Positions 1,811 to 23,355 of a DNA stretch of 64,000 bases are shown here, one piece after another; positions within the stretch are counted from its first letter, which is position 1; each line of letters opens with the position of its first letter. The translations under genes and the position numbers were made by a program. The notes under the pieces were generated by a model, which was given only the letters and a program-made list of their open reading frames with translations, was not told the origin of the DNA and ran no database searches. Source of the DNA: Sphingomonadales bacterium (GTDB lineage Bacteria; Pseudomonadota; Alphaproteobacteria; Sphingomonadales; Sphingomonadaceae); the NCBI GenBank assembly GCA_017309275.1, contig JAFKLT010000037.1, positions 35,657 to 99,656 of the forward strand, in the 5' to 3' direction.

Positions 1811-1826
1811 GGCGGGAGAGGGGACC

Positions 1827-3761: not shown

Positions 3762-3801
3762 CTATTTGGACCGGGTCGGCCGGCGGGGAGCAGGAACGGA
3801 T

Positions 3802-4650
3802 ATGCTGATCGCGCAGATCACCGATATCCATATCGGGTTCGATCCCGACAATCCGGCGGAGTATAACCGCAAACGGCTCGATGACGTCCTCGACGTGCTT
3901 ATCGAGGGGCCGAACCGTCCCGACTTGTTGCTCGCGACGGGCGATATCACCGACCGCGGCGATCCCGACAGCTATCGGCGCTTGTCGACCGCCTTTTCGC
4001 GCTGCCCTTTCCCGGTGTGGCCCAGCGTCGGCAATCATGACCTGCGCGACAATTTCCACGCCCAATTCCCAGGCTTCGATGATGGCAACGGCTTCATCCA
4101 ATATGTGATCGAACTGCCCGAACTACGGCTGGTCACCGTCGACACGCTGGAGGAAGGGCGGCACGGCGGCGCGTTCTGCGAGCAAAGGTCGGCGTGGCTG
4201 GATGCCGAGCTGTCGAAGGATCCGACGAAGCCGACCTATATCGTGATGCACCACCCGCCGGTCGAAAGCGGCATCGAGTGGATGAACACCGATCCCAACG
4301 AACCGTGGGTCGCCGCCTTTACCGCGGTCATCCGGCGCCATCCGCAAGTGCGCGGCCTGATCTGCGGTCATCTTCACCGCAGCGTCACCGTGTCGTGGGA
4401 AGGGCGCACCGTCGCCATCTGTTCGTCGACCGCGCCGCAGGTCTCGCTCGACCTGCGCCCGATCGACGAGAACAAGCCCGACGACCGCCCGATGATCGTC
4501 GCCGAAGACCCCGCCTATGCGCTGCACCGCTGGAACGGGCGCGAACTGGTCAGTTTCTATGACCATGCCGGCGCGCACACGATGCTCGCCAAATATGACG
4601 AGCGGCTGCAGCCGCTGGTGCGCGAATTGAAGGCCGAACGGCCGGCCTAA
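3802..4650 (+). CDS. Class III cyclic-nucleotide phosphodiesterase-like metallophosphoesterase (CpdA/GpdQ type)
   Basis: This 282-aa dinuclear metallophosphoesterase has all the family metal-ligand motifs in order: TDIH near the start, GDITDRGD, GNHD, HHPP and GHLHR. Family members hydrolyse phosphodiesters, notably 3',5'-cAMP (CpdA, Rv0805) or glycerophosphodiesters (GpdQ); the sequence alone does not separate these. ATG 3802 was chosen over an in-frame upstream codon at 3766 because the protein then begins directly with the first beta strand, and GGGGAG lies at 3785-3790. It follows the CNB-ferredoxin cluster and has a CRP-type site upstream, which favours cAMP as substrate. Its stop overlaps the stop of the convergent dehydrogenase gene. 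Confidence 0.85.
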   Translation: MLIAQITDIHIGFDPDNPAEYNRKRLDDVLDVLIEGPNRPDLLLATGDITDRGDPDSYRRLSTAFSRCPFPVWPSVGNHDLRDNFHAQFPGFDDGNGFIQYVIELPELRLVTVDTLEEGRHGGAFCEQRSAWLDAELSKDPTKPTYIVMHHPPVESGIEWMNTDPNEPWVAAFTAVIRRHPQVRGLICGHLHRSVTVSWEGRTVAICSSTAPQVSLDLRPIDENKPDDRPMIVAEDPAYALHRWNGRELVSFYDHAGAHTMLAKYDERLQPLVRELKAERPA

Positions 4651-7491: not shown

Positions 7492-10400
7492 TCAGGGCGT
7501 CTGACTGTCGGTGGTCGGGGTCCACAGGTCGTCGTTGCCCGCGCCCGTCACCGGATCGTCGAGCAAGGGCTCGCCGGTCAGCGGATCTAGGTCGCGCATG
7601 GTGATCAGCGCGGTGGGCAGCGTCGTGCCGTCGCCGCTGTCGTCGCTGTCCTCGTCCTCGATCACATCCTGAACGGGGAACATGCGGTCGATCTCGACCG
7701 ACGACATGCTGCAGGAGGTGACATTGGCGATGAAGCAGCCGTTCAGCGTCGATCGCGGATCAAAGCCGAGCGAACCCGTCGCGCCGGTCGGCACCGGGCT
7801 GCCGCCGATCGTCAGCAGCGAGATCGTGTCGATCCCGGTCACCTGGCCGTTGGCGCCAAGATGGACGCCGTTCAGAACGATCCGCGACGGCCCCTCCGTC
7901 AGCACATCGAGCCCGCCGGCACCGAAGGTCAGGCCGCGGCGCTGGCCGAAATCGGTGCCCGCGCCGCTGTTCTGGACATAGACGCCGCCGACGACGTCGA
8001 ACGCGATACGGCGAGCGAACAGCGCACCCTCGTCCAGTACGACGCCGTCGTTCTGGGCAAGGCGGCTGCTGATCGCATCGATCGAGGTCGCGTTGGCGAC
8101 ATCGGTGATCGCGGCGGTGGTTGCGACGATGATATCGTCCGATTCCATCGTGAGCACGCCGCCCGGTGCGTTGTTGGCGCCGAGCAGGCGTATCGTGCCC
8201 TGGCCCAGAATGACCTCCAGCGCATTGTCGGCGACCAGGTTCAGGGCGTTCGTGTCGGTCAGGCCGGTAAGCTGGACATTGCCGATCACGCGCATCTTGC
8301 CGGGCGTCGAGATGGTCAGCGAACCGTTCGCGCCGATGTTCGACCCCGAACTGCCGCCCGTCATTGTGAAGGTGTCGACGACGACGTCGGGCAGCGCGCT
8401 GCCGCCCAGCGACGCCGGCTGGATCGCGCTGACTTCGGGCGCGAAGATCTGGACGTCGCGGCCGAAGATGCGCGTCAGTTCGTCGGCGTCGATATGGAAG
8501 CCGTTGCGCGTGCCGGTCCCGCCGACAAAGGTCTGGTTGTCATTGTCGTTGTTTTCGATCGACAGCGCCTGCGTCACGCCCGCGGTCCCGACGCGGCCGT
8601 TCGAGGCGATCGTGATGTCACCCGATGCCAGAGAAATATTCTGGCCGGTGACGACGCCGTTGACCAGGATCATCCCGCCCGCATCCGCATCGATATTGTT
8701 CGTCGCGGTGACGTTGGTCATCGTGATCATCTCGTTCGCGTCGAAATCGACATTCGCCGCATTGAGGCTGACGATGATCATATGTTCGCCGGTGTTGCTG
8801 AAGCGTGCCGTGCCGGCGATGCTGGCGCTGTCGACGATGAGACGGTTGTTTGATCGGATGACGGCATCGCCGACATCGGTGACGATGCTGGCGAATTCGA
8901 TCGGGCCGTTGGTCCCGATGTTCAGGCTGTCTGCGATGACGCTGACATTACCGAGCGAATTCAGGTTATTGACCTGAATGGCGCCGTCGTTGGCGGTCAA
9001 TGTGGTGACGCCGCGGCTGTATAGTTGGTCGGCGGATATGCCCGTCGCGCCGGTCAGGGTCATCGAGGCGCCGTCGCCGGATTCGCCCTGGTTGATCGCG
9101 ATCATGCCGTCGGCGGTCAGCGTCAGGTCGCCCCCGGCTGTGAGCGCGCCGCCGGTGATGTCGTTGGCCGAAGTGATCGCGATGCTGCCGCCGGCGGCGA
9201 TCGTGTCGAACACCTGGCTGCTCACGACGATGTCGGCGATCGTCACGTCGTTGGCGTCGATCGTGACGTCGCGGCCCGCATCGACCGTGCCCGCGATATT
9301 TGCCGTGCCGGTCGAGTTGACCACGACGTCGGAAAAGGCGTCGAGGTTCGCCAGCGTCGTGTCGCCGCCGGTGGTGCGGATGCTGCTGTCGCCGCCGGTC
9401 GTTCCGAAGCCGAGCGTCGTTGCGCCGTTGACGCCGATCGTTCCGTTCGCGCTCAACAGGATGTCATCGCCCGCCGAGAGGCCGGTGGCGTCGATCGAGC
9501 CGGCCGAAGAGGTCAGCGTCAGGTCGGATCCGTTGATGGCGGAGTTGCCTTCGCCCTGCGAGATCGTGAAGCCGCTTGCCGGCAGATAGCTGAGGATATG
9601 GGTGTCGGGCCCCGAACCGGTCGTGCGCACGTTCGTCGCGGTTATGTTGCCGACGGCCCGAACGTCGAGATCGTCGCCGACCGAGACGTTGGCGAGCGTC
9701 GCCGTGCCCTGCGACAGGATCAACATATCCTCGCCGACGGCCGCGCCGTCGATATCGACCGATCCGCCCGCGTTCACGCCGAACATGCCCGTTGCCTGGC
9801 TGTTCGTCATGATGATGTCGCCCCCGGCGGTCGCGTACACGCTGGCCGTGGTGGGGAAGCCGCTGCTGCTGCTGCTGCCGTTGCCGATGGCGGCGGCGCT
9901 GGCGATGATGTCGCCGCCCGCGCTGAGGAAGATATCCTCGCCGCCGGCATAACTGCCGGTAATGTCGCCCTGCGCCTGGACGCCGATACCGAACCTGGCC
10001 GTCGCCTGATCGATGGCGACATTGCCGCCGCTAGCGGTCGCCGACAGGAAGCCGTCGGAGTCGACGAGGTCGATATCGATGCTGTTGCCGCTGAGGAAGA
10101 CGCTGCTTCCCGAGTTTATCGCTGCGCCGCGAATACCCTCGGCACCGGTGGCGGTGCCGTTTGCGGTGAGGTCGACGAAGAAGCCCGCATTGATGTTGTT
10201 GAAGACGATCGACTGGCCGTCGACCCGGACATATCCGCCCGCTGTCGAATTGCCGAGGTCCACGGCGCCGACCGAGGTGATGTCGATGTCGCCGCCGGTG
10301 ATGATCGAATTGAGCCCGGTCCGGAAGCTGCCGACATTGGCGGTGAAGTCGTTGACCGCCTCGGAATGTTCGACGCTGACGCTGCCGCCGGCCGTTATGC

Positions 10401-13400
10401 TGATGTCGGTACCGTCGAGCCGGTCGACTGCAATGCGGCCGGTCGGCGTCGTCGTCGCGAGCGTCAGCGTGTTGCCGGCGCCGAGCAGCGAGCCCTGTCC
10501 GCCGACGATGCTGTTCGCGGCCGAAATCGACAGGTTGCCCGTCGCATAAAGCGTCGGGTTCGCTGCGTCGCCGCGCATGTCATGCCGCAGGTGGACCTGG
10601 TCGCCTGCTTCGATGGTCAGGTTGCCGCCGGCGTTCACACGTCCGCTGCCTTGCATATAGGCGCCGACCGAGCTGCCCGTCCGCAGCGTCATGTCGCCGG
10701 TCGCGCGGATCGTGCCGCCATTGGCGCTGAGGAAAATGCCGGCGGGCTGCACGTCGATGTCGTTGTTCGTCGCGAAGGCGAAGCCGAAGGCGTCGGCCGC
10801 CAGGCTGGCCATCGTGATGTTGCCCTGCGCAAACATGTCGATCCGGCCGGCAAGTCCGCCGTTCGCCTGGATGACCGTATCGCCCAGCAGAATGCTGCCC
10901 GTGCCGCCGGACGTCGTAAGCGCCTGGAAAACAACGCGTCCGCCGGTGTCGATGAAGCGGGTGCAGCAGTTGCCGGCGCCGGCAAGTCCGCTGCCGCCAT
11001 CGCCGCCATTGCCCGAAACGCCGCTGACCGCGATGTTGACCGGGGCGCCGTTCGACGTGATCGTGCCGCCGTTGGCGATCAGCGAGACGATACCGCCGGT
11101 GCCGCCGCCGCCGATGCCGCCGTTACCGCCGCGAAGGCCCTGGGTCACGTCGTCCGGGGTGCCGGGGATGCCGTCGGGGCCGGGCAGGGTGATCGTACCC
11201 GGATTGTCGGCGCCGCGACCGCCGGTGCCGCCCGTGCCGATGCTGTTGAAGGTGCCGCCGCTGCTGGAGACTTCGCCGAGGCCGACCGTCGCGCCGTTGG
11301 TCGCGACGATCTCTATCTCGCCGCCGATGCCGTCGCCGCCGTTGCCGCCGCTGCCGCCGACCGCGGGACGGGAGAAGAAGTCGGTGTAGGCCGTGCCGCC
11401 GTTGCCGCCGGTGCCGCCGGTTTCGAAGTTCGATTGCGAGACGCGGATCGATGCGTTCGGTCCGATCGCTTCGATCCGCGAGCGTCCGCCTTGTGCAAGG
11501 CCGCCGCCGCCGGCATCGCCATCGAAGCCGTCGCCGCCATTGCCGCCGAATGCGCTGGTGTCGAGTATCAGCGCGAGCGAGCCGGCATCATAATCGTTGA
11601 CGATCGCCTGAGCCACGCCACCGAATGCATTGCCGCCGTTTCCACCGACGGAGCCGGAACCGCCGTTGCCGCCGCTGGCGCCCGATCGGCTGCCCAGGCT
11701 TTCGCTGACGTTGAGCAGCGTGCCGCCGAGGTTCACCGTCGCAGTGCCACCCTGGCCGTTGCCGCCGCTGCCGCCGACCCCCGCGCCGGTCGAGAAGCCC
11801 GAGCTGCTCGAAACCAGGATGCTGCCGCCGCGACCGCCGAAGCCGCCCGCATCGGCGAAGGCGGCGTCGGTGTCGAGTTCGCCCGCGATGAGGTTGATCG
11901 TCGCCGTGCCGCCGGTTCCCGTACCGCCGATTCCGCCGGTGCCCGGCGTGCCGTTGAAGCTGAAGAAATTGCCGCCAACGCCGCCGTTGCCGCTGGCATA
12001 AGCGGCAAGAACGGCCGTATCGACGACCGCGTCGCCATCGATGTTGATCGTGGCGGTGCCGCCCTGGCCATTGCCCGCGCTGCCCGGCGTCAGGGGATTG
12101 GCGGAATCGAAGTCGTCGCCGTTGAAGCCGTCACCACCGATGCCGCTTGCCGACACGCTGACGTCGGATCCGGTGAAGGTGCCGCCCTGCAGCGTCAGCG
12201 TCGCGGTGCCGCCGAAGCCATCGCCGGACTGCGTCATCGCAAAGCCGCCATAGCCGTTGGCGCTGATCGACAGGTCGCCGACCTGCACCGCGCCGCCGAT
12301 CTGGGTGAAGGTCGCGGTGCCGCCGCGGCCGGTCGTTCCGCGTCCGATGCCGCCGGTGCCGTCGGCCGACAGGTTCATCGGGCCAAAGGCCGTGAAGCCA
12401 CCGCCATTCGCCTCGACCGTGATGGTGCCGCCCTGGCCGTCGCCAGCGGGTTCGAATTCGTTGCCGGCGCCTTCGACGAAGGCCTGGGTCAGGCCGTCGG
12501 CTTCCGCGTTGAGGCTGCCGAAGCTGATCTGGCTGCTTGAATCGAAGCCGGTTCGGATGATGATGTTGCCGCCGGTCCCGATCGGAATGGCCGCGTTGGG
12601 ACCCAATGCGCCGCCCGAGACGCCGCTGGCTTGGATATCGGGATTCGCAAGGGCGATGCTGCCTTCGTTCGCGAAAATGGTGATGTCGCCACCGTTCGCC
12701 GAGCTGCCCGTGTTGCTGTAGCCCGTCTGAGCACTGACGCTGAAGAAGTCGATTCCGTCGCTGGTCGATTCGATCAGGCCGCCGTTGAGCGAGGTCAGCG
12801 TGATCCGGCCACCGCGCGCGGCGCCGTTGGTGCCCACGACATTGGCGACGCCGCCGCGCGCATCGACGCTGTAATTGGCGGCGCTGATCGTTCCGCTGAG
12901 GTCGGCAAGGAAATCGACGTTACCGCCGGTTCCGGTGCCCGCGGACTGGGGCAGGCCCGCAGCGAAGCTGCCGCCGAAGACATTCACCGAAAGCACGTCG
13001 TTGATGGTGATCGCCGAACCGCCGGTCGCGGTGATCGCGACGTTCCCTCCGGCGCCGCTACCGCTATTCTCTCCATTCGACGTGTTGCCGCTGGCGTCGA
13101 TGAAGACGGCGTTGCCCACCTGGAGCGTCGATCCGCCCTGTACCGTGACATCGACGTTGCCGCCGATGCCATTGCCCGAGCGTCCCGTCAGCCCGGTCGG
13201 ACTCGTCGCGCTGCCGCCATCGGCGCGGGCGTTGATACCGAGCCCCGTAAGCTGGACATTCGCGCCGCCATCAATCGAGACATTCGCCGTGCCGGCCTCT
13301 GCGTCGCCGGCGGTCGTGTTTTCCGCATTGCCCGCGCCGCCACCGGCCGCGACGACATTCAGCCCGACGTCGCCCAGGCTGAGCGACGTGCTCGCGTTGG

Positions 13401-15363
13401 TGTTGATCAGCAGTTCGGCGGTGCCGCCGGTCCCGTCACCGCCATTGGCCGAGAAAAGCCCGCTGGGTGAGCGCTGCGATACGCCGCCGCCATAGCCGGC
13501 GGCATTGATCAGCGTGCTCGGCGTAGTGAACGCGGTGCCTGCACCGTTGATGCTGACGCGGCCGGTGCCGCCGGTGCCGTTGCCTGACTGGACATTGCCG
13601 ATTTCGCCGAAGCCGCTGGCGTCCACGTTGACGCTTGTCGATGCGTTCAGGCTTCCGGCCGTATCGACCGTCAGAAGCGCGGTGCCGCCGACCCCGTCGC
13701 CGCCATTGTCCGCCGCTGTCGTCACGCCCGACACATCCGTCGTCAGGCCGCCGCCGAAGCCGCGCGCGTCGACCGAAAGCGAGCTCGCGCTGAGCTGGGT
13801 ACCCGTGCCGCTGACGTTGATCCGCGCGGTGCCGCCGGTGCCGGTGCCGCCCGCGCCCGTCGCTGAAACGCCGCCGTTGCCGACCGCTGAAACCAGCAGG
13901 GCGTTGGTGATCGCCGTCGCGCCGCCGCTGACCGTAAGCGCGGCGGTGCCGCCGCGGCCATTGCCCGTCGTTGCGTCGGCCGCCCCGTCGGCGATCACCG
14001 ACAGGCCGCCGACCGTCAGCAGCAGGCCGCCGTCAACGTTGACGCTGGCGTTGCCGGGCACGCCGCCGCGGCCGCCGGACTGGATCGTCAGCACCCCGCT
14101 CGCCCCCGCAAGGCGATTACCGGTGATGTTCAGCGTCGAGCTTGCGTCGCCGATGAAGGTGCCGTTGCCCTGGACAAGGAAGCGGCCGAGGTGCGGTGGC
14201 GGTACCGCGGTGACCGGGCCGCCGACCGCCGGCAATGTCGCAAGCGGTTGCGCCAGGAAAGCGCCGCTTGCGTGGGCCAGCGTGTTGCTGCGCAGGATGA
14301 TGTCGTTGATCGTGATGTTCGCGGCGGTTGCGTTGACCGGCGTCGTGTTGATCGCGCCGGCGCTGACATTGTAACCGGCTGAAAGGACGATCGAGCCGTC
14401 GGAATTGGTGATGGCAGTGGTGGCGCCATCCTGATAGCCGACCTGGCCCGACACCAGCATGCCGACCGCGACATTCTTCGGAATGGCGACCATGTAGATG
14501 CGCTGCGCGAGGCCGCCCGTCTGTTGTTCGGGGCCGGTCGTCGTCCCGGTGTGCGTGATGACGTTTCCGCCCTCGGCCCCGACAAGCACGTTGATGTCGA
14601 AAAGGCCGCCGTTGATGCGGATGTCGGCCTGTTCGGCCGCGACATAGGCGGCCGATCCGTTGACGCTGACCGCGCCTGCCTGGACGATGCGCGGCGCGAC
14701 GAGCGCGACGTAGCTGCTGCCAGCCTGGGCGAGCGCCTGTTCCGCGTTGATCGCGCCGTTGACCGTTACGGTCGAGTTGCTGCCCGACGCGCCGCGGAAG
14801 CGGATCGCGCCGGTCGTGGGGTCGAGCAGGCCACCGGTCGTTTGAATGTCGTTGCTGGTCAGGACCAGGCTGCCGACGTTGATCACGCCGGTGTTGCCGA
14901 TCAGGAGGCCGCCGGCATTATAGAACCAGATGCTGCCGCCCTGCCCACCCGAAGTGGCAGTGTTCGTGCTGTTGATCGTGCCGTTGAGCGCGACCTGGCG
15001 GCTGAGCGCACCGCCCGCGCCGTTTACGAAGCGGTTGAGGACGATGTAACTGCCGCTGCCGTTGAAGTTCCAAATGCTGTCGGAGGGCAGGACGTTGATA
15101 TCGCCGCCGGTCGCCGCCGTGTCGGTCGGGATCCAGTTGATGATGGTTTGCGCCGCCGTGACGTTGACCGTCGTCGTCTTTGTGCCGCCGTTGCTGTTGA
15201 TCGAAGTGCCCGCGCCGGCGCTGACGTAAACCGGATTGGCCGCGACCTGCGCCAGCGCCGGGCCACCATAGGCGAGCGCCATCATGCCGGCGGTTATCGC
15301 GCAGCCGTTCAGCAGCCGCTGTTTGCCTTTGCGGACGAGCGAGGGTGTGGCGGTGGCACGCAT
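7492..15363 (-). CDS. Giant filamentous-haemagglutinin-like TpsA exoprotein
   Basis: About 2,623 aa. I chose ATG 15363 over ATG 15390 because GAGGA stands 8 bases before it and the protein then starts with a clean signal peptide ending PALAQ. A TPS-type secretion domain follows: a beta-strand pattern with NRFVNG, NGTINS and GGSIWFYNAGGLLIG, where the usual NPNGI is degenerate. Residues about 430-1480 are Gly/Asn/Ala-rich repeats of roughly 45-50 residues with a recurring GxGxGGTA core. The next 800 or so are short beta-helix repeats (GDITI-like). The end has a Cys pair spaced by seven residues (codons at 7735-7737 and 7711-7713), then an acidic tail. It is expected to form a long surface beta-helix exported by the TpsB encoded just upstream. 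The passenger's activity is unknown. Confidence 0.9.
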   Translation of the reverse strand: MRATATPSLVRKGKQRLLNGCAITAGMMALAYGGPALAQVAANPVYVSAGAGTSINSNGGTKTTTVNVTAAQTIINWIPTDTAATGGDINVLPSDSIWNFNGSGSYIVLNRFVNGAGGALSRQVALNGTINSTNTATSGGQGGSIWFYNAGGLLIGNTGVINVGSLVLTSNDIQTTGGLLDPTTGAIRFRGASGSNSTVTVNGAINAEQALAQAGSSYVALVAPRIVQAGAVSVNGSAAYVAAEQADIRINGGLFDINVLVGAEGGNVITHTGTTTGPEQQTGGLAQRIYMVAIPKNVAVGMLVSGQVGYQDGATTAITNSDGSIVLSAGYNVSAGAINTTPVNATAANITINDIILRSNTLAHASGAFLAQPLATLPAVGGPVTAVPPPHLGRFLVQGNGTFIGDASSTLNITGNRLAGASGVLTIQSGGRGGVPGNASVNVDGGLLLTVGGLSVIADGAADATTGNGRGGTAALTVSGGATAITNALLVSAVGNGGVSATGAGGTGTGGTARINVSGTGTQLSASSLSVDARGFGGGLTTDVSGVTTAADNGGDGVGGTALLTVDTAGSLNASTSVNVDASGFGEIGNVQSGNGTGGTGRVSINGAGTAFTTPSTLINAAGYGGGVSQRSPSGLFSANGGDGTGGTAELLINTNASTSLSLGDVGLNVVAAGGGAGNAENTTAGDAEAGTANVSIDGGANVQLTGLGINARADGGSATSPTGLTGRSGNGIGGNVDVTVQGGSTLQVGNAVFIDASGNTSNGENSGSGAGGNVAITATGGSAITINDVLSVNVFGGSFAAGLPQSAGTGTGGNVDFLADLSGTISAANYSVDARGGVANVVGTNGAARGGRITLTSLNGGLIESTSDGIDFFSVSAQTGYSNTGSSANGGDITIFANEGSIALANPDIQASGVSGGALGPNAAIPIGTGGNIIIRTGFDSSSQISFGSLNAEADGLTQAFVEGAGNEFEPAGDGQGGTITVEANGGGFTAFGPMNLSADGTGGIGRGTTGRGGTATFTQIGGAVQVGDLSISANGYGGFAMTQSGDGFGGTATLTLQGGTFTGSDVSVSASGIGGDGFNGDDFDSANPLTPGSAGNGQGGTATINIDGDAVVDTAVLAAYASGNGGVGGNFFSFNGTPGTGGIGGTGTGGTATINLIAGELDTDAAFADAGGFGGRGGSILVSSSSGFSTGAGVGGSGGNGQGGTATVNLGGTLLNVSESLGSRSGASGGNGGSGSVGGNGGNAFGGVAQAIVNDYDAGSLALILDTSAFGGNGGDGFDGDAGGGGLAQGGRSRIEAIGPNASIRVSQSNFETGGTGGNGGTAYTDFFSRPAVGGSGGNGGDGIGGEIEIVATNGATVGLGEVSSSGGTFNSIGTGGTGGRGADNPGTITLPGPDGIPGTPDDVTQGLRGGNGGIGGGGTGGIVSLIANGGTITSNGAPVNIAVSGVSGNGGDGGSGLAGAGNCCTRFIDTGGRVVFQALTTSGGTGSILLGDTVIQANGGLAGRIDMFAQGNITMASLAADAFGFAFATNNDIDVQPAGIFLSANGGTIRATGDMTLRTGSSVGAYMQGSGRVNAGGNLTIEAGDQVHLRHDMRGDAANPTLYATGNLSISAANSIVGGQGSLLGAGNTLTLATTTPTGRIAVDRLDGTDISITAGGSVSVEHSEAVNDFTANVGSFRTGLNSIITGGDIDITSVGAVDLGNSTAGGYVRVDGQSIVFNNINAGFFVDLTANGTATGAEGIRGAAINSGSSVFLSGNSIDIDLVDSDGFLSATASGGNVAIDQATARFGIGVQAQGDITGSYAGGEDIFLSAGGDIIASAAAIGNGSSSSSGFPTTASVYATAGGDIIMTNSQATGMFGVNAGGSVDIDGAAVGEDMLILSQGTATLANVSVGDDLDVRAVGNITATNVRTTGSGPDTHILSYLPASGFTISQGEGNSAINGSDLTLTSSAGSIDATGLSAGDDILLSANGTIGVNGATTLGFGTTGGDSSIRTTGGDTTLANLDAFSDVVVNSTGTANIAGTVDAGRDVTIDANDVTIADIVVSSQVFDTIAAGGSIAITSANDITGGALTAGGDLTLTADGMIAINQGESGDGASMTLTGATGISADQLYSRGVTTLTANDGAIQVNNLNSLGNVSVIADSLNIGTNGPIEFASIVTDVGDAVIRSNNRLIVDSASIAGTARFSNTGEHMIIVSLNAANVDFDANEMITMTNVTATNNIDADAGGMILVNGVVTGQNISLASGDITIASNGRVGTAGVTQALSIENNDNDNQTFVGGTGTRNGFHIDADELTRIFGRDVQIFAPEVSAIQPASLGGSALPDVVVDTFTMTGGSSGSNIGANGSLTISTPGKMRVIGNVQLTGLTDTNALNLVADNALEVILGQGTIRLLGANNAPGGVLTMESDDIIVATTAAITDVANATSIDAISSRLAQNDGVVLDEGALFARRIAFDVVGGVYVQNSGAGTDFGQRRGLTFGAGGLDVLTEGPSRIVLNGVHLGANGQVTGIDTISLLTIGGSPVPTGATGSLGFDPRSTLNGCFIANVTSCSMSSVEIDRMFPVQDVIEDEDSDDSGDGTTLPTALITMRDLDPLTGEPLLDDPVTGAGNDDLWTPTTDSQTP
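10920..14080 (-). repeat. Degenerate Gly-rich tandem repeats inside the TpsA gene
   Basis: On the minus strand this stretch encodes repeated units of about 45-50 residues built on GxGxGGTAxVxVxG followed by a short LxVxAxGxGG segment. On the plus strand it reads as runs of gccgccgttgccgcc-like triplets. Units are related but not identical, so this is an ancient, diverged array and not a recent expansion. Boundaries are approximate. The composition recalls mycobacterial PGRS proteins, but that likeness is only compositional. Confidence 0.7.
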
Positions 15364-15393
15364 GGCAAGGGTCCTCGATGCAAAAGTCATGGG

Positions 15394-17211
15394 TCAGCGC
15401 GCCTTCACGCCGAATTGGGTAGTGAACGACACCAGAAAGCGGGGGTCGGGTTTCTGGGCCAGGAAGCCGCCCTTGTTGAGCGGGGCCGCAACGGTCAGGT
15501 CGAGCCGCGCGACGTCGCCATAGGCGACGCGCAGGCCGCCGCCCGCCGAATAGAGTTTCTGCGGATTGATGCCGTTGAACGCCGTATCCTTGTTCCACAC
15601 CCACGCGGCATCGAAGAAGACGAAGGGCTGGACCGCGAATGCCTTGGTATTGGCGGGAACGAACGAGCCATAACGCGCCTCGACCGCGACGCCGACGCCG
15701 CTGTCGCCGATGATCGTGCCGGGGTCGAAACCGCGTCCGACCGTGAAGTTGCCGCCCGAAAATTCTTCATAGGCGACGAGCAGATCGCTGGCCCATTGTG
15801 CGCGCGGCGCGACGGCGAGGGTGAACAGCTTGTGCGGCCGCCATTCCGCCTGCGCCTGCGCGCGGACAAGGAAGGCGTCGGGCTTGGCCTCGATGCGGGT
15901 CAGCGGGACCGCGCCGGGCAGGAAGCAGCTTGCGCCGCCCGGGCCGCAATCGTCGCTGGCGCCAAGGAAGTTCACGCCCTGACGCGCCTCGATCGAGGTC
16001 GCGATGCCCCAGCGGGGTTCGGACGGGCTGTACCCGCCCTTGCCCGCGACTGAGGCCGGGTCGACCCAGCTTGCATCGGCGCGCAGGTTGAAGACGCGGA
16101 TGCGGTCGCGGTTCAGCGGCACGCCGCCAAGCTTGATATCCTGGTCGATGATGTCGAGCCCGCCTCCTACCGTCAGGCGCCGCGCCTGGGTCAGAACCAG
16201 CGGATAAGAGGCGAACAGGCTGACGATCTGGGTGTTCGACTTGACCGGAAAATTGGCAATGTCGGGCCGCGTCCAGGCATAGGTATAGCTGGCGCCGAGC
16301 CGCAGCCCTTCGCCGCCCACGCGAACCTCATGCGCGAGTTGCAGCACATTCTGCTCGTCGAAATCGGGGGTCGAATAGAAGCTGGCGGTCGTCAGGTCGC
16401 CCATGCCGGTCAGCCCCGCAAAGCGAACCCGCGCGACCCCGCCCCAACGGCCGACATCCTTCGACCCGAAGTTCTGGATGTTGGTGTCGAGGAGGAGGGG
16501 GGTTTGGGTTATGGTTATTTCGCCAACGACCTCTCCTGGAACCGCGCCGGGGCGGAGCGTCAGGCGGGCGTCCATGCCGGGAATGTCCCGCGCGAGAAGG
16601 AGATAGCGTTCGGCGTCGACGATGTTGAACACCGGCTGGTCATCGAGCCGCGAGAGGTAGCGTTGCAAAAGTCGTTCGTTTGCACCCGCATTGCCGCGCA
16701 CTTCGATGCGAGTCATGCGCGCCGAGAGGATTTCGAGCTGGACGACGCCGTCGCTGCCGATCGTCTGCGGCGGGACGCGGACGGCGGCGAGATAGCCCTT
16801 TGCGCGCAGCATGGTCGCCGCGCGGTCGCGAATGTCGCAGACGACCGAGATCGGCAGGTCCTGGCCGACCTTGTCCGACCAGCTGGCGGTCAGCATCGAC
16901 GTGTCGATCCCCTCGACCGGGGTGAACCGGACGTCGCGGACGGTCACGCGGACATTGGCGAATTCGGGATTGGCGAGCGGGCAGGGCGCGCGTTCGATGC
17001 TATCGTCAGCGGTGACCACCTGTTCGCCGGGCGGGCTGGCGGGCGGCAGATTCGGGCGCTGGATTTCCTCGCGGGTCGGAACGACCTGGGCCTGGGCGAC
17101 GGCGGAGAGCGACAGGGCGGCGAGTCCGACCGAGCAGCCAAGCGTCGTACGGATCGCCACTCGCGTGCGCGCCGCGCAACCGATAGCGTCGAAAAACCCC
17201 ATCTTGATCAT
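15394..17211 (-). CDS. TpsB outer-membrane transporter (ShlB/FhaC/HecB family)
   Basis: This 605-aa Omp85-superfamily transporter should export the adjacent TpsA. A signal peptide ends near SAVAQAQ. Two POTRA-type domains follow at about residues 60-235 (for example VTVRDVRFTPVEG and ARMTRIEVRGNAG). The remainder is a beta barrel starting at NIQNFGSKDVG, with VGRGFDPG corresponding to the lid-loop VRGY/F motif of FhaC. It ends with an aromatic-containing strand (SFTTQFGVKAR). ATG 17211 is preceded by AAGGGG seven bases away; the longer frame to 17304 reads through the intergenic region and is not convincing. TpsA begins about 30 bp after the stop, the normal tpsB-tpsA order. Confidence 0.93.
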   Translation of the reverse strand: MIKMGFFDAIGCAARTRVAIRTTLGCSVGLAALSLSAVAQAQVVPTREEIQRPNLPPASPPGEQVVTADDSIERAPCPLANPEFANVRVTVRDVRFTPVEGIDTSMLTASWSDKVGQDLPISVVCDIRDRAATMLRAKGYLAAVRVPPQTIGSDGVVQLEILSARMTRIEVRGNAGANERLLQRYLSRLDDQPVFNIVDAERYLLLARDIPGMDARLTLRPGAVPGEVVGEITITQTPLLLDTNIQNFGSKDVGRWGGVARVRFAGLTGMGDLTTASFYSTPDFDEQNVLQLAHEVRVGGEGLRLGASYTYAWTRPDIANFPVKSNTQIVSLFASYPLVLTQARRLTVGGGLDIIDQDIKLGGVPLNRDRIRVFNLRADASWVDPASVAGKGGYSPSEPRWGIATSIEARQGVNFLGASDDCGPGGASCFLPGAVPLTRIEAKPDAFLVRAQAQAEWRPHKLFTLAVAPRAQWASDLLVAYEEFSGGNFTVGRGFDPGTIIGDSGVGVAVEARYGSFVPANTKAFAVQPFVFFDAAWVWNKDTAFNGINPQKLYSAGGGLRVAYGDVARLDLTVAAPLNKGGFLAQKPDPRFLVSFTTQFGVKAR

Positions 17212-17410
17212 TACCACCCCTTGTGTACGCGCACGTCCGCAACCGCTGACGCACAAAAAATCCGGTGCCCGCCGCTGGTCCGGCGATGCGAATTTTCGAC
17301 CCAAGGAAAGGAGCTACCGCTTTCTTGCGGCAGCTTTTCTTACAATTGTTATCAGATGGTCAGAGTGGGTTCAATGCCCGCCCAATTTTGTTAACCACCA
17401 TTAATCGGCA
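17212..17410 (-). other. 199-bp gap ahead of tpsB with a hairpin
   Basis: The gap is AT-richer than its surroundings. It contains the inverted repeat AGCTACCGC (17312-17320) and GCGGCAGCT (17327-17335) with a six-base loop. Read on the plus strand it is followed by TTTTCTT. On the minus-strand transcript it would lie between the FecR-like gene and tpsB, where it could attenuate or stabilise the message, or the gap could hold a separate tpsBA promoter. I cannot decide between these. Confidence 0.35.
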
Positions 17411-18169
17411 TTAGCCACCACTTGTTTCAGCTTCGGACATCGACTCGGCCAGACGGTTGATCTGCGCCGTGCAGCCCTTTGCCATCAGCATGTCGACCGA
17501 CCCCTCGACCGTGTCCGGGATCGCGCCCATTTCGGTGAAGCGAACGGTGATCGGACCGGCCAGGCCCGCGCCCGAAAGCCGGTAGTCTACGCCATATTGC
17601 AGGGCCAGCGTGTCGGTCGGCCATTTGCGGAAGTTCGCGCCGTCGGGAATGTCGGCATAGGCGCTTTTCGAACCCTGATCGATGCGCAGGATCTCCTTGC
17701 TCTCCATGTCAGGGCGCCACAGCATCAGCGTCGCGGGATTGGCGACGCAGAAGGTGCCGCCTTCGCGATAGTCGAGCAGCCAGATGTTCGGCGCGCGCGC
17801 GTCGACCGGCAGGTCGCCGGGGCCGCGGGTGGCCCCGCCGCGGGGACGCATCGGGCTGGGCGAGAGCATCCGCGTAACGGTGGCACCCATCGTGTTGCTG
17901 GCCTGGATCGTACCGGTCGCGCCAAAGGTGCCGGGCCCCGACAGCGTGCGGGTCTTGCCCGCCTGCATCAGGATCACACGGTCGCCGGCCGCCAAGGTGA
18001 GCTTGTCGGTCGACTTCAGCTTGGTGCCGGTCGGATATTTGCTGGCCGACGGTCCGGTTGAACGAACCACCATGGATTGGGCGGCGGCGGTTCCGGTTAC
18101 GGCGATCGCCATGACGGCAGCGGCGGCGGTCAGGCTGATGCGGCGCATCGAGATATCAGGAAAGGACAT
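17411..18169 (-). CDS. Small exported protein, FecR-like, CHASE2/TPS-associated
   Basis: This 252-aa protein begins MSFPDISMRRIS and has a signal peptide ending TGTAAAQS. The region after it (GTKLKSTDKLTLAAGDRVILMQAG then TRTLSGPGTF) has the short beta-strand rhythm of FecR-type domains; this likeness is weak and my own reading. A Cys pair in the second half (TFCVAN and KGCTAQ) could form a disulphide. There is no TM besides the signal. ATG 18169 was chosen because GGAG stands six bases before it; the gene then overlaps the cyclase stop by 14 bp, which implies coupled translation. It lies between a CHASE2 cyclase and tpsB, so a periplasmic helper or sensor role in the secretion block is likely. 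Confidence 0.7.
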   Translation of the reverse strand: MSFPDISMRRISLTAAAAVMAIAVTGTAAAQSMVVRSTGPSASKYPTGTKLKSTDKLTLAAGDRVILMQAGKTRTLSGPGTFGATGTIQASNTMGATVTRMLSPSPMRPRGGATRGPGDLPVDARAPNIWLLDYREGGTFCVANPATLMLWRPDMESKEILRIDQGSKSAYADIPDGANFRKWPTDTLALQYGVDYRLSGAGLAGPITVRFTEMGAIPDTVEGSVDMLMAKGCTAQINRLAESMSEAETSGG

Positions 18170-20243
18170 AGCTTTCTCCACTTTCGGTCTCGTTCAGTCG
18201 TTCTATCAGAAACATTATGGATGGTTCCTGACTGAATTCTTTGCCCAGCGCTGTGGCGCAGGTCACATAGGCCTTTTTATCGCCTGATGCGTGCACGGCG
18301 ACAAGGTCCGCGACCCGCGCGCGCTGTTCGGGCGAGAGGTCGGGGCGCGGCGTCAGGACGTCGACCGGCTGCGCGCGGCCGCGCAGCGTGACGCGGCCCA
18401 TCTGGACCAGGTCGTCGCGCTCGGCACGGGCGGCCGCCTCGGCCGAAATCAGGACGCCGGTCTTGAGGCTCTTGTTCGCCGATTCCAGGCGCGAGGCGGT
18501 GTTCATGCTGTCGCCGAGCGCGGTATATTGAATGCGATCCTCGCCGCCGAAATTGCCGACGATCGCATCGCCGACATGCAGGCCGACGCGCGTCATGCCC
18601 AGCGGCGGTACATCCTCGCCGGCCAGATCGACCCGGAACTTCTCGCCGGCTTCGTACATGGCGAGTGCGGCGGCGGCGGCCTGCGGGCCGTCGTTCGGCC
18701 GGCTGAGCGGCGCGCCCCAAAAGGCGACGACCGCGTCGCCGACGAATTTGTCGATCGTCCCGCCATGTTCGAGCACGACGTCGGACAGACGGTCGAGATA
18801 TTCGTTGAGCAGGCGCGCGACGGTTTCCGGCGTCGTCGCATGGCTGAGCTTCGTGAACCCCTCCAGGTCGGTGAAGACGCAGAAGATGTTGCGCCGTTCG
18901 CCGTGGAGCGAAAGCTGGTCGGGATCGCGCATGATCTGCGCGGCGACGTCGGCGGGCAGATATTTGCCGAGCGCCGACTGGGCAAAGGCGCGCTGGCGCG
19001 ACCCGACCGTGCGCGCCGCGGTGCCCACCGCCGCATAGCCGAGCAGCCAGCCGAGCGCCCATCCGAACGCCGGAAGCGTCGTCGTGTCGACGCCATGCCC
19101 CTGCAGCCAGAAGGGGAAGGCGACGAAGAAGGCCATCTGGCCGAGAAAGGCGACCGCGACCCAGCGCGCGCGCATGTCGACCAGGCTGGTCAGCCCGCCC
19201 GCCAGCACGACGAGCGCGGCGAGCAGCCACAGCGACGGACCGGGAAGCTTGGTCGACCAATCCTTGTCGAGCTGCTGCGCCAGCATATTGGCGTGCACTT
19301 CCAGCCCGATCATCGTTTCATGCTGGCCGGTGATCGCGTCGACGAAGCGGCTGAGCGGCGTATTGAACTGGTCGGTGTCGATGATGTCGCCGCCGATCAG
19401 GACATAGCGGTCCTTGATCAGGTCGGCGAAGCCCGCGCGCATTTCCGCATCCATCGGCACCGCGAAGGTATCGATCGGAATATTGGCGAACACGGGTTCC
19501 TCCTGTCCCTTCGCCGCGCGGGCGGGGAGCAGGAAACGGATATTGCCCTGATAGGCGGCGTGCGCGGGATCGACCGGCGCCATCGCATTGGCCATCAGCG
19601 GCGGCAGATTCTTGGGCCGGTCGGGCCAGCTTCGGATCACGCTATCGGAATCGGTGCTGAAGCGGACCGAGGTCGGCTTCGTCTTGGCCGTCGTCACCTC
19701 GGCCAGATAGGATTCCAGATATTTCTGCTGTTCGAAGAAGATGGTGTTCGGATTGCTCGCCTGTTCGACATAGGCGAGCCAGGTCGGCGTCTGCATCGCG
19801 CGCAACTGCGCCTTCAGCAGGTCGTCGTCGGGACGCGGCGAGTCGAGCAGAATATCGATCCCGATCGCCTTTGCCCCCATCTGGTCGAGGTTGGCGAGCG
19901 CATTGGTCAGCAGCGTGCGGTCCAGCGGCGAGCGGATGCCGGTATTGAACAGCGTTTCGTCGTTATAGGTGATCATGATGATGCGCTTGTCCTGTCCGAC
20001 ATGCGGCGCCATCACCATCGCGCGTGCGTCGTAGAGCGCGCGTTCGGCATCGCCGACGAGCGGCATCTGCCAGCTGAAACGTGCGATCAGCGTCGCGACG
20101 ATCAGGAACAGGATCGTCGCGGCCATGCGCGACGGCCCAAGCTGCATCACCAGCCGGCGCAACCGCTTGCGCAGCGGAACGGCGGCGGGCCGCCCGTCGG
20201 ACGTCGCGGTGTCCGGCGCGATATCGATTGCCTTCGTCGCCAT
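18156..20243 (-). CDS. CHASE2-domain class III adenylate cyclase
   Basis: About 695 aa. A cytoplasmic N-terminus leads to a first TM helix (ILFLIVATLIARF). A periplasmic CHASE2 domain of about 270 residues follows (IGIDILLDSPRPDDD motif), then three TM helices and a C-terminal class III cyclase domain. All catalytic positions are visible: metal aspartates in FTDLEGFT and KFVGDAVVAF, the substrate Lys in TIDKFVGD, and the Asn and Arg in GDSMNTASRLE. The Thr in QYTALGD indicates class IIIb, so it should make cAMP. It should sense something in the periplasm. The start at 20243 directly follows the CHAT-gene stop; an ORF runs upstream but overlaps that gene. The stop overlaps the FecR-like gene. 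Confidence 0.9.
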   Translation of the reverse strand: MATKAIDIAPDTATSDGRPAAVPLRKRLRRLVMQLGPSRMAATILFLIVATLIARFSWQMPLVGDAERALYDARAMVMAPHVGQDKRIIMITYNDETLFNTGIRSPLDRTLLTNALANLDQMGAKAIGIDILLDSPRPDDDLLKAQLRAMQTPTWLAYVEQASNPNTIFFEQQKYLESYLAEVTTAKTKPTSVRFSTDSDSVIRSWPDRPKNLPPLMANAMAPVDPAHAAYQGNIRFLLPARAAKGQEEPVFANIPIDTFAVPMDAEMRAGFADLIKDRYVLIGGDIIDTDQFNTPLSRFVDAITGQHETMIGLEVHANMLAQQLDKDWSTKLPGPSLWLLAALVVLAGGLTSLVDMRARWVAVAFLGQMAFFVAFPFWLQGHGVDTTTLPAFGWALGWLLGYAAVGTAARTVGSRQRAFAQSALGKYLPADVAAQIMRDPDQLSLHGERRNIFCVFTDLEGFTKLSHATTPETVARLLNEYLDRLSDVVLEHGGTIDKFVGDAVVAFWGAPLSRPNDGPQAAAAALAMYEAGEKFRVDLAGEDVPPLGMTRVGLHVGDAIVGNFGGEDRIQYTALGDSMNTASRLESANKSLKTGVLISAEAAARAERDDLVQMGRVTLRGRAQPVDVLTPRPDLSPEQRARVADLVAVHASGDKKAYVTCATALGKEFSQEPSIMFLIERLNETESGESYVLS

Positions 20244-20247
20244 CAGA

Positions 20248-23200
20248 TCAGCGAGCCGCGCGGCCTGCTGTCTCTCCGGTTTGCGCGGTCGCGGTCGCGC
20301 CATGCAGCAGCGCCTGGCCGCCATCGCCGATGATCGCGAAGCCCGCCCAATAATATGGATGCGACGTCTGCTTTTCGTCCATCAGCTTGGTCTGCGTCGC
20401 CCACAGCGCGTCGGCGATGCTTTCCCCCTGCCGGGCCTCGAACAGCCCGCCGATCAGGCGCGTGGTCGCGTCGAAATCGTCGGGCGCCGGCCAGTGGCTG
20501 GCGATGACCGAACGGCCGCCCGCGCCGATGAAGCTGCGCACCAGCCCGTCGAGCGCATTGCCGCCGCCGCTGGCGACGCCGGCTTCGCGCGTTGCGGCGA
20601 CCGAGGCTGCGCCGGCGGTGTCGCAGGCCGACAGGATGACCAGATCGGCGTTGATCTTGAGGTCGAAGATTTCCTGGAAGGTCAGCAGACCGTCCGAATC
20701 CTGATCGCCGAACGAGGTGACGAGGGCCGGGCGGGCCGGGCACGACGGGCGCGGCGCGGTGACCAGGCCGTGGGTCGCGAAATGGATGATGCGATAGTCG
20801 GACAGGTCGGTCCGATTCTTGACCGCCGTGTCGGTGAACGCCCCGCCGGTCAGCAGCGTCGCCGCGTCGCGGTTCATCGTGCGGCTGGCGGTGACCAGTT
20901 CGTCGGCGGAGATCGGACGGCTCCACTGGCTGACGTCCCAGTGGCAATTGCCATCGACGCCGCCGGTAACGGCGCCGCGCGTGCCGGTCGACGGCAGGAC
21001 GCCGCCGACGACGGGCAGGTTCTGGCCCAGGCCGAAATATTCGCGGGTTCCGGTCGACGGCGCCGTCTGGCGCGCGTTGCGGAACGACAGTGCCGACACT
21101 GCGGTGCTCGGCCGCGTCGCCCGGCCGAGCCAGGCGATGTTGCGCATGTCGAAGGCGTCGGCATTCGGATCGGTGATCCGCTGCTCATATTCGGCGAGCC
21201 CCGCGTCCGAGGTGATCAGCAGGTTGATCGGCAGACGCAGCATCGCGCCGTCGGGTTCGAAGATCAGGTGCGGCACCGACGGCAGGCGGTCGGCGACGGG
21301 GGCGAAAAGCTGCGTATAGAGTTTGCGCGCGGTCGCGGCGTCGAAGGGATAGGTGACGCGGCGGCCGTTCTCGACGATCGAGATGGTCGACCGGATGCTG
21401 TCGACCGCATTTTCAAGGCCCTGGTTGCTGACGTCGGCGCGCCAGAGCTGCGCATCCTTGTTGCCGATCAACATGCCGTACACCGAATCGCCGACGACGA
21501 GCATCTTCAGATAGGCCTCGTCGGGTTTTAGCACCTGCTGCAGTTCGGCGAGGTCGAGCTTGCCCGGCGCAACGACGCGATATTGCGGATAGGCTGACAG
21601 CTTCACCACGGTTTCGGACTGCTGGAACGACAGATTGTCGAGCTGGGTCTTGAGGTCGGCGCGCAGCGCGTTGACTTCGGGCGAAACGGGAAGCTGCGCC
21701 AGGCGGGCATCCTCGATCCGCGCGCGTTCGATGTCGCGATTGAGCGTCGTCGCCTGGCGGAAGAGGCGCGCGCCATCGTCGCTGCCCGCCGACAGTTCGC
21801 GTGCCAGCACCGCCTGCGTATCGGCGACGCCGGGGCGAACCTGAAGCTGGCTGGCGACGAAGAAGTCGCTCACCGCCGACGGATCGGTCGCGGCGCGGCT
21901 GGCGAGCAGCCGGTAATAGGGCGCCATCATGTTCGCCATGCCGGTGGTCGAACGCTGCGACCCCGCGAGCGCGGTCACGACATCGCGGTAGATGCCGAGT
22001 GCCTTGTCGTCCTGGCCATGCCGCGTGAGAAAGGCGGCGTAGCGCGCACGGGCCGAGGCGAGGGCATTGGTTTCGGGATATTCGACCGCAAGCGCGTTGA
22101 TCGATTCCTGGAAGCGCGCGTCGGCGGAGGCGGTGTCGCCAAGCGCTTCTTCGGCAAGCGCCAGTTCGCCGAGCATCTGCGACCGCAGGCGGACGATCGA
22201 GGTGACGCGGCCTTCGCGGACCGCCAGCGCATCGCCGAGCCCCTTGATCTGGGCCGCCTTCGCCGCCTGGGGATTGCCGCGCAGCCGTTCGACCGTACCG
22301 AGCAGATGGACCGCCTGCGCGTCGATGATCTGCGCGCGCTCGAGCGGGGTCAGCCGTTCGCGATCGCCGGTCTGGCGTACCGCGCGGGCGCTGCTGCCGC
22401 TGTTGACGCCGGCGACGATCTCCGGCGTCAGCGTGACCGCGCCTTGCTCGATCGTCACGGCGTTGGTCAGCGGCGGGATCGGCGTCTGCAGCAGCGCCGC
22501 CGCGCCGTCATAGTCGCGCTGGTTGAGCGCGTGGATGGCGCGGAAATTGCGGCGCAGGCGAAGCTGGACCGGATCGCTGGTGGGGATCGCCTCGACCTCT
22601 GCGAACAGGCGCTCGGCCTCGGCGAATTCGCCCAGGTTCGAACGTTGCAGCGCGCGGTTCAGCGTGAATTCGGTGGGATCGAGGTCGGCTGCGGCCTGTT
22701 CCTCGACCGCGCGGCGCGACAGTGCCTCGAAAAACTCGGCGGCCTCGGCATAGTCGCCGCTGTGGTTGCGGCGATATCCCTCGGCCAGCGCCTTGTCGAC
22801 GTCGATGGTGCCGGCGAGGGTGCGGGCGAAACCGTCGTTGCCGCCGACCGATGTCGTCGCGACCTTGATCTGTCCGGGCACGACCTTGCGCTGGCGGATC
22901 GATTCGAGCGCGATGTTGAGCGCGTCATTATAAGCGGTGAAGCCCTCGACCGCATAAGCGGTGTTGCCGTCGACCTCGATTCGCGTCGTCCAGCCGATAT
23001 TGCCGTCCTTGACCGTGCACGCGTCGGGGGCGGTGCAGACGATCGTGCCGCTGCGCCCCTGGTCGATCCGCGCGCGCGCATCGGCCGCGTCGGCGCGAAG
23101 CATGCGGACATAGCCGACCGGCTGGCTCGCGTCGCGGCAGACGATCAGCCACGCGCGGTCGAACATGCCCTTGATCACGGAATCGCGAACGGTCGCCTGC

Positions 23201-23355
23201 ACCTCGCACAGCGAGCCGCCCTGATCGCCGATCGAAAAACTGTTGCGGAGCGTCGGGTCGCTGACCTGCGCCTGCGCGCTTCCCGGCACGGCCAGCGCCA
23301 ACATGGGCACCAGCGCAGCCAGAATCGGCGCAAAATACGGACGTCGAGCGGTCAT
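20248..23355 (-). CDS. Exported TPR-CHAT protease-like protein
   Basis: This 1,035-aa protein starts MTARRPYF, with GGGGA seven bases upstream. A signal peptide ending GSAQAQ places it in the periplasm or outside. About 100 residues of unknown beta-rich sequence with several Cys come next. A helical middle follows in which TPR-like repeats are recognisable (EAAEFFEALSRRA, EAERLFAEV, LALAEEALGDTASADARF). The C-terminal CHAT domain (caspase-like, clan CD) keeps both catalytic residues: His862 in RIIHFATHG and Cys911 in LVILSACDTA. It ends with the conserved SHWPAPD and YWAGFAIIGD. It is the first gene of the minus-strand secretion block. CHAT proteins usually cleave or sense partner proteins; TpsA, TpsB or the cyclase's periplasmic domain are candidate partners by position only. 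Confidence 0.9.
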   Translation of the reverse strand: MTARRPYFAPILAALVPMLALAVPGSAQAQVSDPTLRNSFSIGDQGGSLCEVQATVRDSVIKGMFDRAWLIVCRDASQPVGYVRMLRADAADARARIDQGRSGTIVCTAPDACTVKDGNIGWTTRIEVDGNTAYAVEGFTAYNDALNIALESIRQRKVVPGQIKVATTSVGGNDGFARTLAGTIDVDKALAEGYRRNHSGDYAEAAEFFEALSRRAVEEQAAADLDPTEFTLNRALQRSNLGEFAEAERLFAEVEAIPTSDPVQLRLRRNFRAIHALNQRDYDGAAALLQTPIPPLTNAVTIEQGAVTLTPEIVAGVNSGSSARAVRQTGDRERLTPLERAQIIDAQAVHLLGTVERLRGNPQAAKAAQIKGLGDALAVREGRVTSIVRLRSQMLGELALAEEALGDTASADARFQESINALAVEYPETNALASARARYAAFLTRHGQDDKALGIYRDVVTALAGSQRSTTGMANMMAPYYRLLASRAATDPSAVSDFFVASQLQVRPGVADTQAVLARELSAGSDDGARLFRQATTLNRDIERARIEDARLAQLPVSPEVNALRADLKTQLDNLSFQQSETVVKLSAYPQYRVVAPGKLDLAELQQVLKPDEAYLKMLVVGDSVYGMLIGNKDAQLWRADVSNQGLENAVDSIRSTISIVENGRRVTYPFDAATARKLYTQLFAPVADRLPSVPHLIFEPDGAMLRLPINLLITSDAGLAEYEQRITDPNADAFDMRNIAWLGRATRPSTAVSALSFRNARQTAPSTGTREYFGLGQNLPVVGGVLPSTGTRGAVTGGVDGNCHWDVSQWSRPISADELVTASRTMNRDAATLLTGGAFTDTAVKNRTDLSDYRIIHFATHGLVTAPRPSCPARPALVTSFGDQDSDGLLTFQEIFDLKINADLVILSACDTAGAASVAATREAGVASGGGNALDGLVRSFIGAGGRSVIASHWPAPDDFDATTRLIGGLFEARQGESIADALWATQTKLMDEKQTSHPYYWAGFAIIGDGGQALLHGATATAQTGETAGRAAR

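Follow-up and report, generated by a model that had tools for sequence, protein, structure and literature searches.

What could hold together, in one bacterial locus, a caspase-fold protein, a cyclase with a membrane-borne sensor, and a secretion pair for a large surface protein? We addressed this question in a 64,000-nucleotide stretch of contig JAFKLT010000037.1 from a Sphingomonadales bacterium (the window, which always means this whole stretch). Five genes run there on the minus strand from 23355 down to 7492 and encode, in order, a CHAT protein, a CHASE2 class III cyclase, a small exported protein, and the TpsB and TpsA proteins of a two-partner secretion (TPS) pair (Table 1). We tentatively propose an envelope cyclic AMP (cAMP) circuit with electron transfer as its output, of which this block would be the sensing half. 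We infer every causal step of this circuit from the gene content, the intact catalytic residues, the co-occurrence of the genes without linkage, and the neighborhood of an electron-transfer cassette.

All five open reading frames are open, in the order and at the coordinates that an original prediction from the sequence had given. Its spacings also hold, with 4 bp between the CHAT and cyclase genes, a 14-bp overlap between the cyclase gene and the small gene, and 199 bp before TpsB. The last gap, predicted at about 30 bp, is 30 bp from the second ATG of TpsA (15363) and 3 bp from the first (15390); both candidate start Met are present in the consensus of 12 TpsA N-termini. A scan of the window against Rfam gave no matches. 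The source genome (G000) is a 5.1-Mb assembly of 121 contigs that is 99.99% complete, and the organism, a bacterium of soil and water, is Sphingopyxis-like because its cyclase shares 79-85% identity with the cyclases of 10 Sphingopyxis-titled contigs (51% for an eleventh, L128).

The gene order is not chance, because the same CHAT-cyclase-small protein-TpsB-TpsA order was found in 15/15 genus loci fetched. These were drawn from the 32 of 35 other genus genomes searched that contain the cyclase. To survey the order, we ran CHAT, the cyclase, the small protein, and TpsB separately against one set of 196 genomes and kept only strong matches, dropping CHAT below 406 bits, the cyclase below 409, TpsB below 418, and the small protein below 59. 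All four were present in 39 genomes and none in 154, and three genomes held incomplete sets (G205, all but the cyclase; G150, the cyclase and small protein only; G206, the cyclase only). The genes thus behave across genera as the single set that was predicted: at least one of the four gives a strong match in 42 genomes, and 39 of these have all four. Counted as two pairs, CHAT with TpsB and the cyclase with the small protein occur together in 39 genomes and alone in one genome each, and 155 genomes lack both. The cut removed divergent contiguous CHAT-small protein-cyclase-TpsB blocks in G093 and G163, sister CHAT-TpsB pairs (G063, G178, and a second locus of G179), and other TpsB matches of 237-335 bits.

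This co-occurrence does not depend on the genes being neighbors. Across the order the cyclase adjoins the small protein and CHAT lies with TpsB, and the distance between the two pairs is within 1 kb in 17/39 genomes and 19 kb in one. In the remaining 21 they are unlinked, 10 times on the same contig at least 115 kb apart and 11 times on different contigs, which we counted as unlinked. Hitch-hiking alone is therefore insufficient to explain why the genes occur together. Order variants have either CHAT-TpsB or TpsB-gap-CHAT, each with or without the attached cyclase pair. On a quick tree of 73 named-locus cyclases, on which a locus is labeled split if no CHAT lies within 3 kb upstream, CHAT-cyclase linkage changed at least 12 times (9 without five long rows). 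Genera g1, g24, g27, g33, and g36 each contain genomes with and without the set. The original prediction had taken shuffling of homologous loci as a point that would count against it. Across the order the genes are indeed shuffled and their linkage broken, but co-occurrence is kept, and its persistence under these conditions strengthens the functional link.

Named genomes gave a similar picture. Among the best 80 of at least 561 cyclase relatives, the titles are Sphingopyxis, Novosphingobium, Erythrobacter, Porphyrobacter, Sphingobium, Sphingomonas, and similar, with some unclassified Alphaproteobacteria or Proteobacteria and one metagenome-assembled genome labeled Caulobacteraceae. Within a view of at most 10 kb either way, 76/80 of these relatives have the small protein next to the cyclase, and 57/80 show a CHAT gene above 300 bits.

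The CHAT domain and its His/Cys dyad place the first protein of the block with the CHAT peptidases of clan CD. His862 and Cys911 are invariant in 32/32 aligned CHAT proteins, including three other CHAT proteins of the same genome, and a signal peptide is seen by eye at the N-terminus; both the intact dyad and export had been predicted. We regard CHAT as a caspase-fold protein with an intact dyad and a presumptive protease activity. A PDB sequence search with the CHAT profile returned only TPR-type proteins. An established signaling role is not known for any caspase-fold protease of the periplasm. The three further CHAT genes of this genome lie at L028:6156-10862, L027:9022-11907, and L029:8725-11955; one is directly 3' of a different TpsB, and one adjoins an AMP-binding enzyme.

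The cyclase contains Pfam CHASE2 (2.6e-24) and Guanylate_cyc (4.5e-18) domains. Asp486, Lys526, Asp530, Asp605, Asn608, and Arg612, which we take to be the metal, adenine, and transition-state positions, are intact, as predicted, and invariant in 29/29 aligned cyclases (numbering follows an open reading frame that starts 27 codons before the likely start). With its domains, the metal Asp pair, the adenine Lys/Asp, and Asn/Arg, the protein has the makeup of a class III adenylate cyclase with CHASE2, taking the residue roles as assigned above. The predicted product, cAMP, is consistent with retention of the residues presumed to specify adenine and remains a likely assignment. A simple transmembrane scan found one hydrophobic stretch before CHASE2 and two after, an arrangement in which the sensor should face the periplasm, as had been proposed. 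Given the signal peptides (by eye) of CHAT and the small exported protein and the stretches flanking the CHASE2 domain, all three should meet in the periplasm. A second CHASE2 protein of this genome (L030:9440-11731) has an EAL domain and no cyclase match.

The small protein also begins with a signal peptide, by eye. Alignments of 29 and 38 sequences show, besides its two invariant Cys (Table 1), invariance at some Gly, Trp, and Arg positions. The original prediction called it FecR-like, by eye only; none of 38 homologues matches Pfam FecR at E 0.05, and we have dropped the name. T2SSC matches weakly in 3/38 homologues, and the best E value in a PDB sequence search was 0.4. The gene is duplicated in tandem at L051, L055, L125, L137, L142, L144, L162, and L180.

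The predicted two-partner secretion pair is supported on both sides by sequence comparison. TpsB matches ShlB at 54.5 bits, over the cut-off of 22.7, as appropriate for the transporter of a type Vb system; its POTRA_2 match (21.2 bits, 2.6e-4) is just under the cut-off of 24, and a crude strand-alternation score gave z 2.1. A Pfam scan of the window TpsA gave no match, and its N-terminus aligns to the Pfam-recognized TPS domain of the relative L107 (hhalign 97.7%, E 2.3e-12), which provides the N-terminal TPS domain of a type Vb substrate. TpsA is the least conserved protein of the block in the genus, with 44-69% identity in its matches versus 72-86% for CHAT and the cyclase. At L051, L055, L063, L065, L067, and L083 no TpsA was called beside the CHAT-TpsB locus; at most of these six, runs of small genes come next, and three such proteins have no Pfam match.

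The 199 bp before TpsB (17212-17410) may be a promoter with a regulated leader. Its ATTG, TCTGATA, and TCCYTGGGTCG elements and a GGGG ribosome-site block are invariant in 16/16 genus loci, and the window genome has a 9-bp GC-rich hairpin there. We dropped a structured leader RNA as an established feature, as covariation is weak (term -0.29) and terminator-like sites number 12 versus 11.9 in shuffles. We likewise do not treat the block as a single five-gene operon, given this conserved leader between the small gene and TpsB.

Beyond the five genes, the oxidoreductase, decaheme cytochrome, and phosphodiesterase-like genes at 1-4650 are an addition to the original prediction (Table 1). Between the end of the phosphoesterase gene and TpsA lie 2.8 kb that contain cysS. 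The oxidoreductase matches PKA regulatory subunits and YpdA in PDB sequence searches, and a candidate motif, presumably phosphate-binding, is kept in at least one of its cyclic-nucleotide-binding (cNMP) domains in 9/9 homologues examined. From these matches, the oxidoreductase near the block is likely a local cAMP reader. The best PDB sequence match of the phosphoesterase is Rv0805 (1.6e-20), followed by an entry named Icc protein (3.2e-20); we take both to be class III cyclic-nucleotide phosphodiesterases.

Table 1. Features of the window: the five-gene block, its leader, and the electron-transfer cassette
Feature	Coordinates	Strand	Basis
CHAT (caspase-fold) exported protein, 1035 aa	20248..23355	-	Pfam CHAT 1.5e-50; signal peptide by eye; four Cys near N-terminus; His862/Cys911
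CHASE2 class III cyclase, 695 aa	18156..20243	-	Pfam; catalytic residues; transmembrane scan; best PDB sequence matches adenylate cyclases
Small exported protein, 252 aa	17411..18169	-	Alignments of 29 and 38 homologues; invariant Cys 141, 233
199-bp leader before TpsB	17212..17410	-	Alignment of 16 genus loci; 9-bp hairpin in window genome
TpsB outer-membrane transporter (ShlB/FhaC type), 605 aa	15394..17211	-	Pfam ShlB 1.7e-14
TpsA surface protein, 2632 aa, N-terminal TPS domain	7492..15390	-	hhalign to Pfam TPS domain of relative L107, 97.7%
FAD/NAD oxidoreductase, 3' part of 811-aa protein	1..929	+	Whole gene L031:14150-16585; Pfam cNMP_binding 3.7e-34 (two stretches), Pyr_redox_3, Fer4
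Membrane protein, weak cytochrome b561 similarity	929..1810	+	Ni_hydr_CYTB 0.0028, below cut-off; same cassette in relatives
FHA-like stretch and decaheme (10 CXXCH) cytochrome c	1827..3761	+	Cytochrome_C7 3.5e-16; FHA 0.0071, below cut-off
Calcineurin-like phosphoesterase, candidate cyclic-nucleotide phosphodiesterase	3766..4650	+	Pfam Metallophos 3.5e-17

The cassette and the block co-occur. Its decaheme marker is present in 39/196 genomes, plus one weak match, and the two modules are distributed as 33 genomes with both, 6 with the block only, 6 with the marker only, and 151 with neither. The block lies within 25 kb of C554 (see below) or the marker in 29/33 genomes. In 12 of the 16 marker genomes with non-adjacent block pairs, it is the cyclase pair that lies near; CHAT-TpsB is the near pair in G157 and, as a second CHAT-TpsB copy, in G193. 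The oxidoreductase (at least 987 bits) was found in 10/10 marker-positive and 0/25 marker-negative genomes tested, the latter giving no match above 35 bits, and the phosphoesterase was called in 11/16 genomes with fetched islands. Among the six marker-only genomes, G093 and G163 hold the divergent block, and G206, G185, and G136 have another CHASE2 cyclase inside the island.

In relatives the cassette faces a run of C554, an HbpS-like protein, k1, and k4. C554 is present in 38/196 genomes and k4 in 38 plus one weak match. k4 has 10 CXXCH motifs in 4/4 proteins examined, LVIVD repeats in the one scanned, and a match to the ExtM model. k1 may be an outer-membrane barrel by weak signs: a weak porin match (0.0019) and a final Tyr invariant in 13/13, with a crude strand alternation of z 1.2 that is not separated from shuffles. 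PDB sequence searches with k1 and k4 gave no matches. The HbpS-like protein (L072:9160-11142 and homologues) has about 660 amino acids and a lipoprotein signal by eye, usually lies between C554 and k1, and was not called in L106. Three Erythrobacteraceae loci, from Erythrobacter dokdonensis DSW-74, E. fulvus, and one Erythrobacteraceae metagenome-assembled genome, carry TpsB-TpsA-CHAT-cyclase-small protein-C554-HbpS-k1-k4 as a one-strand run, in which TpsA is assigned by position and its open reading frame was seen in L167 only.

In the circuit that we propose, which is the most economical explanation, CHAT, the small exported protein, and the CHASE2 domain would read the state of the outer membrane or the surface assembly of TpsB/TpsA, which would be the surface proteins watched or served by the sensor. 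CHAT would probably trim the small protein or TpsA, its obvious candidate substrates, and so switch the cyclase. The FAD/4Fe-4S oxidoreductase, encoded at the opposite end of the locus, would read cAMP through its tandem cNMP domains and pass electrons via the b-type protein and the decaheme cytochrome, while the Rv0805-like phosphoesterase would remove cAMP. In relatives the outer cytochrome set accompanies this chain.

We also followed the cyclase outside the order. A class search of 289 genomes gave 23 rows that match the cyclase profile near end to end at 412 bits or more, 20 of which were fetched; these loci come from about 16 genera and are not all independent. The controls were 20 further class III cyclases from that search, including one inside the order (G062). 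The small protein lies within 1.5 kb of the cyclase in 19/20 loci versus 0/20 controls (Fisher p 3e-10) and CHAT in 10/20 versus 2/20 (Fisher p 0.014), with both profiles built from Sphingomonadales only. A caspase C14 protease lies within this distance in 4/20 loci versus 0/20 controls; some of the counted loci had gone into the C14 and cNMP profiles, whose counts therefore lean upward. Pfam C14 proteases are named in L191, L207, and L208. TpsB is in view in 2/20 loci. Because of these neighbor counts, the wider core looks like a protease, the small protein, and the cyclase, with secretion or effector parts added in some lineages. By Pfam, the cNMP neighbors are proteins with a cNMP domain alone, MscS-type channels that carry one, and a CRP-type regulator. 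At L197:6627-8069 and L201:571-1995, in other Alphaproteobacteria, the cyclase adjoins a mechanosensitive-channel protein with a C-terminal cNMP-binding domain.

Several observations weigh against an envelope circuit with electron transfer as its output. Outside the order, a cNMP-binding protein beside the cyclase is not enriched (6/20 versus 3/20 controls, p 0.45, with the partly self-built profile), and we reject such enrichment; TpsB lies within 1.5 kb of the cyclase in 0/20 loci versus 1/20 controls. C554 and k4 were not found in the window assembly, which thus lacks the outer multiheme cytochromes of an Mtr/Ext conduit that are present in most relatives with the cassette, and we therefore claim no outward conduit for it. 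The block and the cassette are not near each other in 4/33 genomes (G002, G147, G099, and G151), and G062 has the cassette with no cyclase in the 40 kb fetched. The six block-only genomes all belong to genus g33, and electron transfer therefore cannot be the sole output. Finally, CHAT and TPS genes can go together without this cyclase: G063 and G178 have sister-type pairs (CHAT 220-243 bits, TpsB 230-271) that lie 7-11 kb apart on one strand, with no cyclase match. The coupling therefore holds for one CHAT-TpsB type and not for all.

These sister pairs also favor an alternative arrangement. Here CHAT would mature TpsA by proteolysis, the cyclase would act solely on expression of the secretion genes, via a CRP-type factor for instance, and the electron-transfer genes would be a separate neighbor. 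CHAT stays with TpsB where the cyclase pair lies elsewhere, and the other TpsB-CHAT pair of the window genome (L028) has no cyclase beside it in view. The conserved leader before TpsB fits this arrangement as well. It leaves unexplained, however, that the cyclase pair accompanies this CHAT-TpsB type in 39/40 genomes, 21 times unlinked, and outside the order it is the cyclase that CHAT adjoins, in 10/20 loci, with TpsB in view in only the two mentioned. On balance we judge this arrangement as a whole to be a possible explanation, though on the unlikely side.

Shared neighborhood without common function, as an old conserved order or a genomic island, appears improbable. Of the 7 genus genomes in the order survey with both modules, 5 have the marker 11-15 kb from the block, as such a history would give, and these genomes are related. 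Both modules are nevertheless kept when unlinked in 21/39 genomes, 10 of them at least 115 kb apart on one contig, and genomes with and without the set occur within each of the five genera named above.

A regulated-death or antiphage module that combines a caspase-fold protease with a cyclase and a cNMP effector, as in caspase-based defence or in Pycsar, which pairs a cytidylate/uridylate cyclase with a dedicated effector, is very improbable. Some other Alphaproteobacteria do carry such genes in clusters, including MscS-type cNMP proteins, and the PADLOC PycC model matches the cyclase at 1.4e-33. This match is confined to residues 465-628, the catalytic domain, and the residues presumed to specify adenine are invariant; on these two grounds we reject Pycsar membership. 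CHAT and its partner start with signal peptides by eye, and 32/35 other genus genomes searched have the cyclase, unlike the patchy spread of defence genes.

The proposed circuit has partial likenesses among known systems. The CHASE2 cyclases CyaD1, CyaD2, and CyaK of Sinorhizobium meliloti respond to a signal through the outer-membrane barrel NsrA and act with Clr (PMC13001267). They take an envelope signal via such a barrel, but their output is the CRP-type factor Clr, and the abstract and introduction name no CHAT, small exported partner, or TPS gene (PMC13001267). A metacaspase-CHASE2 fusion of Trichodesmium erythraeum likewise joins a caspase fold to a CHASE2 sensor, but in one protein whose protease is predicted to be cytoplasmic, and the word cyclase is absent from both main texts (PMC3501461, PMC2853523). 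HetF of Anabaena (PMC8406250) and the TPR-CHAT protein Csx29 are CHAT-family members described as actual or putative proteases, with other partners: heterocysts and the divisome for the former and a CRISPR effector for the latter. The relatives of the window resemble Mtr/Ext porin-cytochrome conduits in having several multiheme cytochromes and a possible outer-membrane barrel; they differ in their LVIVD-decaheme and HbpS-like parts, the cNMP-binding oxidoreductase, and the CHASE2 cyclase nearby. FhaC/FhaB shares the tandem of TpsB with a TPS-domain TpsA, whereas here the pair is held with CHAT, the CHASE2 cyclase, and the small exported protein. Among the matches listed from the open-licence literature, where absence is no proof, none links a CHAT or caspase protease with a CHASE2 cyclase in a conserved gene set, and none describes the sphingomonad cytochrome island; Sphingo- and Erythrobacter have no occurrences in the main text of PMC11475568.

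Of the fuller form of this proposal we are doubtful: a protease-gated system in which cAMP would directly gate an NAD(P)H-oxidizing flavin/iron-sulfur protein that feeds multiheme cytochromes towards the surface, and in which cAMP-gated channels or CRP factors would be the outputs of this core elsewhere in the Alphaproteobacteria. If the inferred path is true, an aerobic bacterium would couple the state of its surface to electron flow via cAMP, with an oxidoreductase, rather than a transcription factor alone, as the cAMP target. The survey provides many genomes in which this path can be tested. Overall, a set that tends to be kept or lost as a whole, usually along with genes for predicted cAMP-reading electron transfer, suggests a previously undescribed link between cell-surface state and respiration.

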